DNA of 64,000 nt. Origin: Frankia sp. AgB32. Its GTDB lineage: Bacteria > Actinomycetota > Actinomycetes > Frankiales > Frankiaceae. The notes below the pieces were generated by a model. That model was not told the origin of the DNA. It worked only from the letters and a program-made list of their open reading frames with translations, and ran no database searches. Below are positions 28,743 to 32,699 of this stretch, one piece after another. The stretch spans positions 1-64,000 of the forward strand of contig NZ_JALKFX010000015.1 in the NCBI RefSeq assembly GCF_023243045.1. Direction: 5' to 3'. A program made the translations under genes and the position numbers. Position 1 is the first letter of the stretch; every line of letters begins with the position of its first letter.

Positions 28743-29800
28743 CCAGCGGGGCAGTCATCACCGGCGGGCAGCGGGCGAACGCGGACGACGGGCCCACGGC
28801 GCCGACGCCGATCACGATGGCCAAGGCGCTCAACCTCGGCCTGCGCGCGGCGATGGCGGCCGATCCGAAGGTGCTCGTGATGGGCGAGGACGTCGGCATC
28901 CTCGGCGGGGTGTTCCGGGTGACCGACGGGTTGCAGCAGGAGTTCGGCGAGCCCCGGGTCATCGACACGCCGCTCGCCGAGTCCGCGATCGTCGGGACGG
29001 CGATCGGCCTGGCCATGCGCGGCTACCGGCCGGTGTGCGAGATCCAGTTCGACGGCTTCGTCTACCCCGCGTTCGACCAGATCGTCAGCCAGCTCGCGAA
29101 GCTGCACTACCGGTCGGCGGGCCGGATCCGGCTGCCGGTGACGATCCGGATCCCGTTCGGCGGCGGCATCGGCGCGGTCGAGCACCACAGTGAGTCCCCG
29201 GAGGCGTACTTCTGCCACACGGCGGGCCTGAAGGTCGTCGCCTGCTCGAACCCGGCCGACGCCCATCTCATGATCCAGCAGGCGATCCGCTCCGACGATC
29301 CGGTGATCTTCCTGGAGCCCAAGCGCCGGTACTGGGAGAAGGCCGTCGTCGACCCCCGGTCGCTGACCGAGCTGCCCGCGGCGGACACGACCGAGCTGCA
29401 CCGCAGCGTGGTGGCCCGCGCGGGCACCGACGCGACCCTGGTCGGCTACGGCCCCACCGTGCGGACCTGCCTGGACGCCGCCGAGGTCAGCGCCGCGGAC
29501 GACAGCCGCTCGCTGGAGGTCATCGACCTGCGCTCGCTGTCCCCGCTCGACCTGACGCCGGTGCTGGACTCGGTGCGGCGCACCGGCCGGCTCGTCGTGG
29601 TGCACGAGGCGCCGTCGAACGTGTCGCTGTCCGCGGAGGTCGCGGCCCGGGTCACCGAGGAGGCGTTCTACTCGCTGGAGGCGCCGGTGCTGCGCGTGAC
29701 CGGCTACGACACGCCGTACCCGCCGGCCCGGCTGGAGGACCACTACCTGCCGGACGTCGACCGGATCCTCGACGCCGTCGACCGGTCCTTCGGCTTCTGA
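28739..29800 (+). CDS. pdhB: 2-oxoacid dehydrogenase E1 beta subunit
   Basis: 353 residues, transketolase-like pyrimidine-binding domain followed by C-terminal domain. Seen: T-M-A-K-A-L-N-L-G-L, V-M-G-E-D-V-G-I-L-G-G-V-F-R-V-T (catalytic Glu), D-T-P-L-A-E-S-A-I-V-G, I-Q-F-D-G-F-V-Y-P-A-F-D-Q and I-R-I-P-F-G-G-G-I-G. The C-terminal part has L-E-V-I-D-L-R-S-L-S-P-L-D. GTG start 28739 with GGGGAGG upstream, overlapping the E1 alpha stop by four bases. The E2 gene should follow at once but is 1.36 kb away because a tnpB element lies between. Confidence 0.94.
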   Translation: MTSGAVITGGQRANADDGPTAPTPITMAKALNLGLRAAMAADPKVLVMGEDVGILGGVFRVTDGLQQEFGEPRVIDTPLAESAIVGTAIGLAMRGYRPVCEIQFDGFVYPAFDQIVSQLAKLHYRSAGRIRLPVTIRIPFGGGIGAVEHHSESPEAYFCHTAGLKVVACSNPADAHLMIQQAIRSDDPVIFLEPKRRYWEKAVVDPRSLTELPAADTTELHRSVVARAGTDATLVGYGPTVRTCLDAAEVSAADDSRSLEVIDLRSLSPLDLTPVLDSVRRTGRLVVVHEAPSNVSLSAEVAARVTEEAFYSLEAPVLRVTGYDTPYPPARLEDHYLPDVDRILDAVDRSFGF

Positions 29801-29838
29801 TCAGACCGCCACCGATTTTCCGAACGGGGGTACCTCCC

Positions 29839-29990
29839 TTGACGTCCTCCCCCGTCTGAAGGCGGGGGATTCCAACTCCTACACACCCACCAGAAGGGGA
29901 GGTGTGGAATGTTGAGGTTCGCGGTTCACCGGCACCGGCAGCCCGGCGCCTCCCCGCGCGGTCACGGCCCGTCCGGCCGCGATATTCATA
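29839..29990 (-). ncRNA. Putative omega RNA (guide RNA scaffold) of TnpB
   Basis: In this family the RNA overlaps the 3' end of tnpB and runs through the right-end hairpin into flanking DNA, whose first bases act as guide. Here the guide would begin at 29838 and read GGGAGGTACCCCCGTTCG. The 5' limit (29990) is approximate. Inferred from family knowledge and the end sequence. Confidence 0.45.
29849..29868 (-). repeat. Right-end subterminal hairpin of the tnpB element
   Basis: Eight-bp stem (29849-29856 with 29861-29868, one G-T pair) around a TGAA loop on the plus strand, ten bases inside the element end. This would be the 3' hairpin of the guide-bearing RNA. Confidence 0.8.
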
Positions 29991-31060
29991 GCCGCGTTCA
30001 CGTCAGCGTTGGCCGTGTGCCCGCAGGCGACGCACCGGAACCGCGCTTGACTCTCACGCGATCCGGCGGCCCCATGCCCGCAGGCCGAGCAACGCCGACT
30101 CGTCAAGGCGGCCGGGATTTCCTCGACCTGGCCGGGGGATTTCTGCTCCAACCGTTGGACGAGCTGTCCCCAACCGGCGGCGAGGATCGCCCGGTTCAGC
30201 CCGGCTTTCTGCCGCACATTCCGGCCTGGCGCCTCGACCGTGCCACGGGCCGAGCGGGTCATGTTCTTCACCCGCAGATCCTCGACGCGGATCACGTCGA
30301 ACCGCCGGGCGAGGTCGGTGCTGGTTCTCTCCACCCAGTCCTTCCGCCGGCCCACTCCCCGGGCTTTCACCCGGGCGATCCGCGCCCGCCGGACGCTGCC
30401 CCGTTGCGCGCGGGCGAGACGGCGTTGCCACCGCAGCAGCCGGGCCTGCTCAGGCGATCGCGGACCCGGACAGGACAGCAGGTCCCCGGTCGACAAGGCC
30501 GCGGACACGGCCACACCCCGGTCGACCCCGACGACCTCACCGGTACCCGGCGCGAGAATCGGCTCGGGCACGGCGGCGAACCCCACCTGCCAGCGGCCGG
30601 CGCGATCCACGGTGATCCGGTAGGACTTCGCGTCGGGCACCGTGCGGGAACGACGGAACCGAACCCAGCCGACTTCCGGGATGCGGACTTCGGACCAGCG
30701 GCGGTTGATCTGCCGCACATCCGAGGGTTTCACCGCGACGATCCGGAACCCTTCGCCCCGGCCGCGTTTCCGGAACCTGGGCTTCCGATGAGTACCCCGA
30801 AAGAAGTTGGCCATGGCGGTGGAAAAATCCCGCAGCGCCTGCTGTTGAACAATGACGCTGCCCGTGGCGAGCCAATCGAACGCGCGCCGGGCCTCGGTCA
30901 ACTGCCGGTTCTGCTCAATATAGCTCGGCGCGGGTCCGCGACGAGGGTTCCACCAGGACTGCTGTTCGGCGGCAAGGTTCCACACGTACCGTGCATGTCC
31001 GCAGTGCTCGGCCATCACCATCGCCTGATCGGCGGTCGGATAAAGCCGGTAGCGGGACAT
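29879..31060 (-). CDS. tnpB: TnpB RNA-guided nuclease (OrfB, RuvC plus zinc ribbon)
   Basis: 393 residues, full length. The N-terminal helix-turn-helix region starts R-Y-R-L-Y-P-T-A-D-Q-A. RuvC residues are all present: Asp180 in V-G-V-D-R-G-V-A, Glu260 in I-R-V-E-D-L-R-V-K-N-M, and Asp353 in N-A-D-V-N-A-A-M-N-I. The zinc ribbon has C-S-A-C-G and C-V-A-C-G before the last Asp. Nothing suggests decay, so it may be an active nuclease that cuts the empty target and preserves its copy. ATG at 31060. Confidence 0.95.
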   Translation of the reverse strand: MSRYRLYPTADQAMVMAEHCGHARYVWNLAAEQQSWWNPRRGPAPSYIEQNRQLTEARRAFDWLATGSVIVQQQALRDFSTAMANFFRGTHRKPRFRKRGRGEGFRIVAVKPSDVRQINRRWSEVRIPEVGWVRFRRSRTVPDAKSYRITVDRAGRWQVGFAAVPEPILAPGTGEVVGVDRGVAVSAALSTGDLLSCPGPRSPEQARLLRWQRRLARAQRGSVRRARIARVKARGVGRRKDWVERTSTDLARRFDVIRVEDLRVKNMTRSARGTVEAPGRNVRQKAGLNRAILAAGWGQLVQRLEQKSPGQVEEIPAALTSRRCSACGHGAAGSRESQARFRCVACGHTANADVNAAMNIAAGRAVTARGGAGLPVPVNREPQHSTPPLLVGV

Positions 31061-31118
31061 GGTCCGATTCTATCGGAAGGGATTTCCCGATGAGTTCCAG
31101 CGTGGGACGCCGATTCCT

Positions 31119-31138
31119 CCCCGGCCTGAAGGCCGGGG
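31119..31138 (-). repeat. Left-end subterminal hairpin of the tnpB element
   Basis: Perfect 8-bp stem (CCCCGGCC 31119-31126 with 31131-31138) around the loop TGAA, matching the right-end hairpin in form. Confidence 0.85.
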
Positions 31139-31157
31139 CATCCACGGCGCAAACCCG

Positions 31158-32699
31158 ATGACGCAGCGACAGTTCCGGCTTCCCGACCTCGGTGAGGGAC
31201 TCACCGACGCCGACGTGGTCCGCTGGCTCGTCGAGGTCGGCGACGCCGTGACGGTGAACCAGCCGCTCGTGGAGGTGGAGACGGCCAAGGCGGTCGTCGA
31301 GATCCCGAGCCCCTTCGCCGGCGTGCTGGTCGCCCGGCACGCCGAGGAGAGCACCACGCTGGGCGTCGGCGAGCCGCTGTTGACGATCCGCACCGCCGAG
31401 CCCGAGCCCGCGGACAGCGCGCCGAGCGCGGCGGGCGCCGGCCACCCCGATCTGCGCCCGTCCGACTCCGGGCCGGGCGGCGTCGACGCCCGCTCCGACG
31501 AGGGCGAACGGACCCCGGTTCTGGTCGGCTACGGGCCGCGGTCGAATCGGCCGCTGCGCCGCGGCGCCCGCCGCCGTCCCGTCCCGCCCGCCCAGCCGAC
31601 CCCCGCGGTCGAGCGATCCATCCCCGCCGACCAGGACGGCGTCACCAGGCTGTCCGGCACCACCAGCCCGGCGCGGGCGCGGCTGGGCGCCGCGGTGCTC
31701 GCCAAGCCGCCTGTCCGCAAGCTGGCCCGCGATCTGGGGGTTGATCTCGCCGGCCTCGTCGGCAGCGGGCCCAACGGCACGATCAGCCGGGCGGACGTCG
31801 AGGCGGCCACCCGCACGGCGGCCCGGGCCGTGCCGGTCGCGAGCCCGCCCGCCTGGTCGCCGGCCGGCCCGGCGCTCCCGGGCGCGGCACCCACCGGCGC
31901 CCCGGCCCCGGCGTCGGGCACCGCCCCCGGGGCAGGCACCCCGCTGGTCGGCGCGATCCCGGCGGACGCGACGTTCGCGGCGGACACCGGCAGCTGGCGG
32001 ATACCGGTCGTCGGCGTCCGGCGGATGATGGCGCAGGCCATGGTCGCCAGCGTCTCGGCGGCGCCGCATGTCACCGAGTTCCTCAGCGCCGACATGACCG
32101 CCACGATGGACGGCCGCAAACGGATCATGGAGCTGCCGGACTTCGCCGGGGTGCGGGTGACGCCGCTACTGTTCGTGGCCCGGGCCCTGCTGGTGGCCGT
32201 GCGCCGGCACCCGATGATCAATTCACGCTGGGTCGAGGACGGTGCTGGCGGGCGTCCGGAGATCGAGGTGCCCGGCCGGGTGAACCTGGGCATCGCGGTG
32301 GCGGGCCCACGGGGGCTCGTGGTGCCGCACATCCCGGACGCCGACCGGCTGGACCTCGTCGGCCTGGCGCGGGCGCTGGCGGCGCTGACGGCGGACGCCC
32401 GCGCGGACCGGCTCGACCCGGCGCGGCTGCGCGGCGCGACCATCACGATCACCAACGTGGGCGCGCTCGGCGTCGACATCGGCGCGCCGATTCTCAATCC
32501 GCCCGAGGCGGCGATTCTCGCCCTGGGTTCGGTCCGGCCGATGCCCTGGATACACGAGGGTCAGGTGACGGCACGTACGGTGGCACAGCTCGCGCTGTCC
32601 TTCGACCACCGGATCGTGGACGGGCAGCTCGGCGCCGCGGTGCTGGCCGACATCGGCGCCATGCTGACCGATCCCACCGTCGCGCTCGCCTGGTCGTGA
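31158..32699 (+). CDS. pdhC: 2-oxoacid dehydrogenase E2 (dihydrolipoamide acyltransferase)
   Basis: 513 residues. One lipoyl domain (1-75) with lipoyl-Lys44 in V-E-T-A-K-A-V-V-E-I-P. After a linker comes the peripheral subunit-binding domain (K-P-P-V-R-K-L-A-R-D-L-G-V-D, about 180-215), then an Ala/Pro linker. The acyltransferase domain ends with the catalytic S-F-D-H-R-I-V-D-G-Q-L-G. Core of the complex formed with the E1 subunits upstream; no E3 gene is in the window. ATG 31158 begins M-T-Q-R-Q-F-R-L-P-D-L-G-E-G. It has no Shine-Dalgarno, and the tnpB element ends only about 7-15 bases before it, so the native leader was probably cut away. Confidence 0.94.
   Translation: MTQRQFRLPDLGEGLTDADVVRWLVEVGDAVTVNQPLVEVETAKAVVEIPSPFAGVLVARHAEESTTLGVGEPLLTIRTAEPEPADSAPSAAGAGHPDLRPSDSGPGGVDARSDEGERTPVLVGYGPRSNRPLRRGARRRPVPPAQPTPAVERSIPADQDGVTRLSGTTSPARARLGAAVLAKPPVRKLARDLGVDLAGLVGSGPNGTISRADVEAATRTAARAVPVASPPAWSPAGPALPGAAPTGAPAPASGTAPGAGTPLVGAIPADATFAADTGSWRIPVVGVRRMMAQAMVASVSAAPHVTEFLSADMTATMDGRKRIMELPDFAGVRVTPLLFVARALLVAVRRHPMINSRWVEDGAGGRPEIEVPGRVNLGIAVAGPRGLVVPHIPDADRLDLVGLARALAALTADARADRLDPARLRGATITITNVGALGVDIGAPILNPPEAAILALGSVRPMPWIHEGQVTARTVAQLALSFDHRIVDGQLGAAVLADIGAMLTDPTVALAWS

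Follow-up and report, generated by a model that had tools for sequence, protein, structure and literature searches.

The closest described systems are ISDra2 and IS608, elements of the IS200/IS605 group which move by peel-and-paste transposition with a Y1 TnpA transposase. Here we analysed a 64,000-nucleotide stretch of Frankia sp. AgB32 (contig NZ_JALKFX010000015.1), referred to as the window, in which a tnpB-only element of IS200/IS605 type, 1,319 bp long (29839-31157), lies between the E1 beta and E2 genes of a 2-oxoacid dehydrogenase operon. The element and its relatives share with ISDra2 and IS608 the subterminal hairpins, the 5′ guide tetranucleotides that pair with the cleavage sites, the insertion 3′ of a short motif and a tnpB gene with a predicted guide RNA at the right end, and the right cleavage site C_R (TCAA) and right guide G_R (GAAT) are identical to those of IS608 (PMC5934647). 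As corresponds to the IS200/IS605 type, hairpins were found at both ends without terminal inverted repeats, the empty sites showed no target duplication, and insertion was on the 3′ side of a defined tetranucleotide with which the left guide pairs. In contrast to ISDra2 and IS608, the family is tnpB-only, its target is TCAY and not TTAC or TTGAT, this target falls on start and stop codons, and a leader open reading frame (ORF) is contained in the left end.

Two other systems serve for comparison. IStrons (CdISt1, CbISt), which belong to the IS200/IS605 or IS607 elements, have a device by which the insertion becomes harmless to the host gene (PMC4227781); they leave the mRNA by group I intron splicing, whereas the device proposed here would re-couple translation through a leader ORF. 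Scanning 29600-31400 against Rfam, with E values of up to 1 admitted, gave no group I intron, the mark of an IStron, and no known RNA family for the omega-RNA other than sub-threshold HgcC matches at both hairpins (29826-29952 and 31115-31205, minus strand), which probably stem from the GC richness of the hairpins. The RNA-guided repressors TldR are alike in their TnpB origin and in having guides at the 5′ regions of genes, but they are nuclease-dead with a fixed guide to a host gene, while the window element keeps the three RuvC residues, is multicopy and has a different guide in each copy. The literature search, which covered few subscription papers and preprints, found IStron splicing as the one damage-limiting device of this group and no report of start- or stop-codon targeting by IS200/IS605 or TnpB elements, nor of such a leader; a 2009 survey of Frankia insertion sequences is silent on start codons. 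Insertion at gene punctuation, with a leader completed by the stop of the target, appears to be a variant of IS200/IS605 biology that had not been described.

The best explanation, with a probability of about 0.6, is that the element belongs to a Frankiaceae-wide tnpB-only family which inserts at gene punctuation and spares its neighbours by means of a right-end stop and a left-end leader. About 60 other Frankiaceae copies had the same ends. The usual left end was CGG beside TCAT or TCAC followed by a CCCCGGCC..GGCCGGGG-type hairpin, and the usual right end was GGAATC-hairpin-GGAYGTCAA. TCAY bordered 65 left ends, and a few left ends were without it. TCAY is the antisense of RTGA, in which a start codon is followed by A and a TGA stop is often present as well. 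The left ends of the leader-bearing subfamily are designated here as A-type. A second left-end subfamily (B-type: L227, L228, L230, L240, L243, L244, L247, L248, L250, L252, L256, L257, L260, L270, L272, and L273) has the same TCAY target and no leader ORF, and its share of insertions at stop codons is higher.

For 46 independent insertions the empty site was rebuilt and compared with a background of 1,356 RTGA sites from the same loci. Gene starts and/or stops were occupied by 33 of the 46 insertions (13 at stop-start overlaps, 12 at a start only, and 8 at a stop only), the remaining 13 being at neither, while the background comprised 8 overlaps (0.6%), 111 starts only, 28 stops only, and 1,209 sites at neither. 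The enrichment was significant for both A-type (p = 3e-15) and B-type (p = 2e-7) elements. Relative to plain starts, overlaps were enriched about 15-fold (13:12 versus 8:111, p = 5e-7). The starts had independent support from Pfam: in around 20 A-type cases a domain opened near its first profile position soon after the RTG, the domains starting just past it being those of ABC transporters, NAD-dependent DNA ligase, GH1, PrpD, PEP mutase, HAD, TetR, YbjN, and S4, among others.

Read outward, the A-type left end is formed by GAAAGGA-N-ATG/GTG-21 to 22 codons-CG|R TGA, so that both the leader stop and the last base of its final codon come from the target and the stop overlaps the host start codon as RTGA. 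In the window, the Shine-Dalgarno-like GGAAGGGA (31075-31082, plus strand) precedes an open frame of 23 codons (MSSSVGRRFLPGLKAGASTAQTR; 31090-31161, plus strand) which begins at the ATG at 31090 and is closed by the target-supplied TGA at 31159-31161, overlapping the E2 start. Under a strict test, 33 of the 42 A-type ends had Shine-Dalgarno plus start in the RTGA-terminated frame; the other two frames gave 3 and 1, and shuffled sequences 1.6%. The same arrangement was found in none of the 18 left ends of other types, although the B-type group, which makes up most of them, shares the TCAY target. The start codon was RTG in all 37 aligned leaders, with bases 2 and 3 invariant, while the neighbouring codons varied. 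Two copies with an altered terminus gave TGATGA, which still overlaps. At the other side, the host strand of the right end has TTGA, changing the NNR-TGA of an overlapping upstream gene into NNT-TGA; since TTGA replaces RTGA, the stop of the upstream gene stays at the same place and in register. Judged from sequence, then, the insertion is at punctuation, the right-end stop is in register and the leader is closed by the TGA of the target.

Considering this arrangement, the following mechanism is proposed. A readthrough mRNA of the operon would cross the element, transcription through it being assumed, and ribosomes would translate the leader, terminate, and re-initiate at the host start codon by translational coupling. 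The leader would thus substitute for the Shine-Dalgarno sequence severed by the insertion, and the coupling would lower the cost of insertion, making the element tolerable even at essential genes. It is this coupling, beyond the choice of target alone, that would explain the distribution of insertions. Once excised, the site would be cut by TnpB with its flank-derived guide, favouring retention as in other IS200/IS605 elements. We lean, if slightly, towards the broader view that the family evolved to insert at RTGA with a two-part repair kit, right-end stop and left-end leader, occupying operons and essential genes with little harm, the left-end guide base choosing between ATG and GTG starts. 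The question addressed is by what means tnpB elements, which are very abundant, survive in genomes dense with genes. If true, this would add to IStron splicing a simpler, translational counterpart as a second solution, with translation of both neighbouring genes preserved; it would explain why Shine-Dalgarno regions are often the antisense of the RNA guides of the family, and it would offer a tool for placing DNA into operons without polarity.

Three loci were compared with uninserted relatives: E2, ligA, and one ABC-transporter gene of the window genome (G000, Frankia-type, 6.68 Mb). In the first, the order on the plus strand was E1 alpha (PF00676), E1 beta (PF02779 and PF02780; 28736-29800, TGA stop at 29798-29800, 97% identical to that of the sister genome G007), the tnpB element on the minus strand, and E2, a dihydrolipoamide acyltransferase of 513 amino acids (PF00364, PF02817, and PF00198; 31158-32699). 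E1 beta and E2 were adjacent, with a gap of about 13 to 98 nt and no element, in 12 of 12 genomes of the same genus. These data agreed with the sequence-only reading, which had described a tnpB-only element splitting E1 beta from E2 after insertion, in opposite orientation, into a once-continuous operon, and had called for the alignment with close relatives which here found the uninserted operon and fixed the ends. The outcome that it had named as refuting, E1 beta and E2 lying apart in relatives that lack the element, was not observed. Of the ends it had proposed, 29839 was kept and that at about 31150 was corrected to 31157 by the junctions common to the copies, with TCAY|CGGG as the left one and GTCAA| as the right one. 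Excision would consequently leave the 38 nt of the native spacer (29801-29838, plus strand), close to the gap of about 45 bases then estimated and to the 37 nt of G007; the approximate end had masked the junction with the E2 start codon. Joining the flanks gives ...GGGGTACCTCCC + ATGACGCAG, which corresponds to ...GGGGTACGACCC + GTGACGCAG in G007; the empty site of this closest sister reads ...CCGAACTGGGGTACGACCC|GTGACGCAGCGACAG, and the window reads ...CCGAACGGGGGTACCTCCC|element|ATGACGCAGCGACAG. As the ATG of E2 at 31158 directly abuts the element, the latter separates the native 5′ region from the start codon. Taken alone, the locus is a fairly ordinary TnpB insertion that had been correctly spotted; what had been overlooked was the insertion exactly at the start codon, the family-wide habit and the leader ORF in the left end.

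The left end has the hairpin (31119-31138) and the left guide G_L, GATG (31139-31142), both on the minus strand, and the target C_L, which is also the transposon-associated motif (TAM), is TCAT (31158-31161, minus strand), that is, ATGA on the host strand, the E2 start codon plus A. The last base of G_L covaried with the last base of the target. GATG was found with TCAC in 25 cases and with TCAT in one, and GATA or GAGA was found with TCAT in 26 cases and never with TCAC; over 55 natural insertions, the pairing of the last bases was 26:3 versus 0:26 (p = 1e-12). This is a natural confirmation of the base-pair targeting rule of IS608. The sole GATG/TCAT exception was the copy in the window. All 12 relatives start E2 with GTG, which is TCAC on the opposite strand, and the window E2 starts with ATG. 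Taking into account these starts and the GATG guide, the simplest reading is an insertion at TCAC, the start codon having probably changed from GTG to ATG afterwards. With this change C_L and G_L would mispair, so that excision could be hindered and the copy possibly locked in place; given the TCAT flank, both excision and TAM recognition may be impaired in the window copy.

In the second locus, the empty ligA of G003 reads ...GCGCCGGC|ATGAGC and the inserted one of G008 reads ...GCGCCGGC|element|ATGACT, the A-type element lying at the ATG of a single-copy gene. NAD-dependent DNA ligase is essential in bacteria. Since the only ligA of G008 bears the element at its start codon, its expression must persist. 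For the ABC-transporter gene, eight empty relatives of the same genus were found, with the start GTGAGC. A related element was also seen in the plasmid pMA100, exactly at the eccB/eccC overlap, where eccB ends on the right-end TGA and eccCa starts against the left end; in the uninserted Mycobacterium plasmids pS2a and pMK12478 the two genes overlap by 4 nt according to the NCBI annotation.

The main rival is that this is an ordinary TnpB-only element which hits its tetranucleotide at random, intragenic insertions being purged so that those at boundary RTGA sites are left, with the leader as an incidental feature. Such survivorship could by itself, with no coupling involved, yield a large part of the punctuation bias. 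The target is only a 4-mer and TnpA needs little more, the leaderless B-type also gathers at stops and overlaps, and stops are scarce in every frame of GC-rich sequence. Other points also weigh against our interpretation. The background gene starts came from a simple GC-frame rule applied to the same loci and not from a gene finder. Leader-bearing elements were at starts in 20 of 32 cases and leaderless ones in 5 of 14, with more of the latter at stops, a difference at starts that is merely suggestive (p = 0.04 to 0.09), and three overlaps were occupied by leaderless B-type elements. Nine of the 42 A-type ends failed the strict test, and the mycobacterial copies mostly had no leader ORF, only a Shine-Dalgarno before the hairpin. 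The leader peptide gave no sign of purifying selection, the ratio of nonsynonymous to synonymous polymorphism (pN/pS) across the full ORF being close to 1 or higher. However, the excess of overlaps over plain starts speaks against survivorship, which by itself leaves unexplained a leader framed in one frame (33 versus 3 and 1), absent from B-type ends and with an invariant start codon (R at position 1), and which sits poorly with the insertion tolerated by a single-copy ligA. We therefore consider it possible but rather unlikely. As for the peptide, its lack of purifying selection speaks against a leader function at the peptide level; only the start, the Shine-Dalgarno and the frame appear to be constrained, on sequence comparison, and an invariant start with an unselected peptide is what is expected if translation matters and the product does not.

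It was also considered that the outward Shine-Dalgarno and start serve the element itself, for instance by giving a small peptide or by regulating tnpB in antisense. On the strand opposite to tnpB, the unit covers its promoter region, and GAAAGGA is retained in mycobacterial copies without the ORF; nevertheless, the peptide is not conserved and the ORF finishes exactly at the host start codon through a stop supplied by the target, which makes this reading very improbable. A further alternative is that the element is kept in the operon mainly because TnpB cuts every uninserted allele. The tnpB gene (29879-31060, minus strand) encodes 393 amino acids with PF12323, PF01385, and PF07282, and it was intact as previously read, with D180, E260, and D353 of the RuvC site in place, as well as the two CxxC pairs of the zinc ribbon (324-327 and 343-346); the closest solved structure of a natural protein was ISDra2 TnpB (8bf8/8h1j, E ~4e-28). 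The right-end hairpin (29849-29868), which with G_R forms the 3′ end of the omega-RNA scaffold (29849-29872, minus strand), showed compensatory changes in 3 of 7 pairs, with 93.6% of cells paired. The right cleavage site (29839-29842, minus strand; TTGA on the host strand) was kept in nearly all copies, and directly 3′ of the conserved GTCAA lies the flank acting as predicted guide, 5′-GGGAGGTACCCCCGTTCG (29821-29838, minus strand), which fits the joined empty site of the operon, as had been proposed. The sole genome match to this guide was the right junction of the element itself, with TCAA replacing the TAM, and no further TAM plus target was found in the genome within 3 mismatches, so that the complete target would arise only at the empty site. 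Cutting of the excised donor joint, which favours retention, is a published role of TnpB (PMC8612924), and TnpB cutting also underlies a proposed plasmid gene drive (PMC11870625). This role being established for the whole family, the locus is not special in this respect. Moreover, TCAT mispairs with the GATG left guide, 25 of 26 like copies having TCAC, and the empty site of G007 differs from the guide at positions 4, 5, and 13, which makes the guide specific for near-identical alleles. The claim that the nuclease would cut any uninserted allele is hence sustained as to the intact protein and the fitting guide and not as to its generality, and that of a special test case for retention does not stand, this being textbook TnpB biology weakened here by the flank and the mismatches. 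We regard retention by cutting as an improbable main cause.

Three further readings were tried and rejected. An outward left-end promoter giving a leaderless E2 mRNA had no sigma-70-like site and no -10 beside the ATG. An in-frame N-terminal extension of E2 from the ATG at 31059 had no Shine-Dalgarno, and in other copies the host frame was broken at varied distances. For a terminator on the operon strand inside the element there was a single weak match, equal to the mean of the shuffled sequences. It was also noted that a 394-amino-acid open frame runs antisense to tnpB (29909-31093, plus strand), most likely an effect of the high GC content.

In Mycobacterium and Mycolicibacterium (L279-L282 and L077), the Shine-Dalgarno (GAAAGGAG) stands directly before an extended hairpin, which would bring it near the host start and is possibly, from its position, a second way to restore initiation. 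An order-level search for further hosts gave nothing beyond the same 35 genomes.

No TnpA lies inside the element, as had been stated. The only Y1 TnpA found in the window genome was within an element which has the same right end and CTAC at the left end, and it is no more than a candidate for the mobilisation in trans that had been proposed. In these Frankia genomes, the elements with both tnpA and tnpB (L140, L142, and L145-L147) have in common with the window type the right end GGAATC...GGAYGTCAA, but they carry tnpA and insert beside CTAC, while the window-type elements are tnpB-only and use TCAY. A complete divergent tnpA-tnpB element with this right end and a CTAC left target is located at G000:C194:19694-21500 (L140/L275), and it suggests that the TCAY elements were retargeted by changes in the left end. 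Finally, copies resembling miniature inverted-repeat transposable elements (MITEs), with both ends and without tnpB, were observed at G013:C23, ~29236-29368 (L266, 125 bp) and G003:C1, ~4029720-4029910 (L265, 187 bp), likewise at gene starts (GH1 and DUF2752 ORFs).
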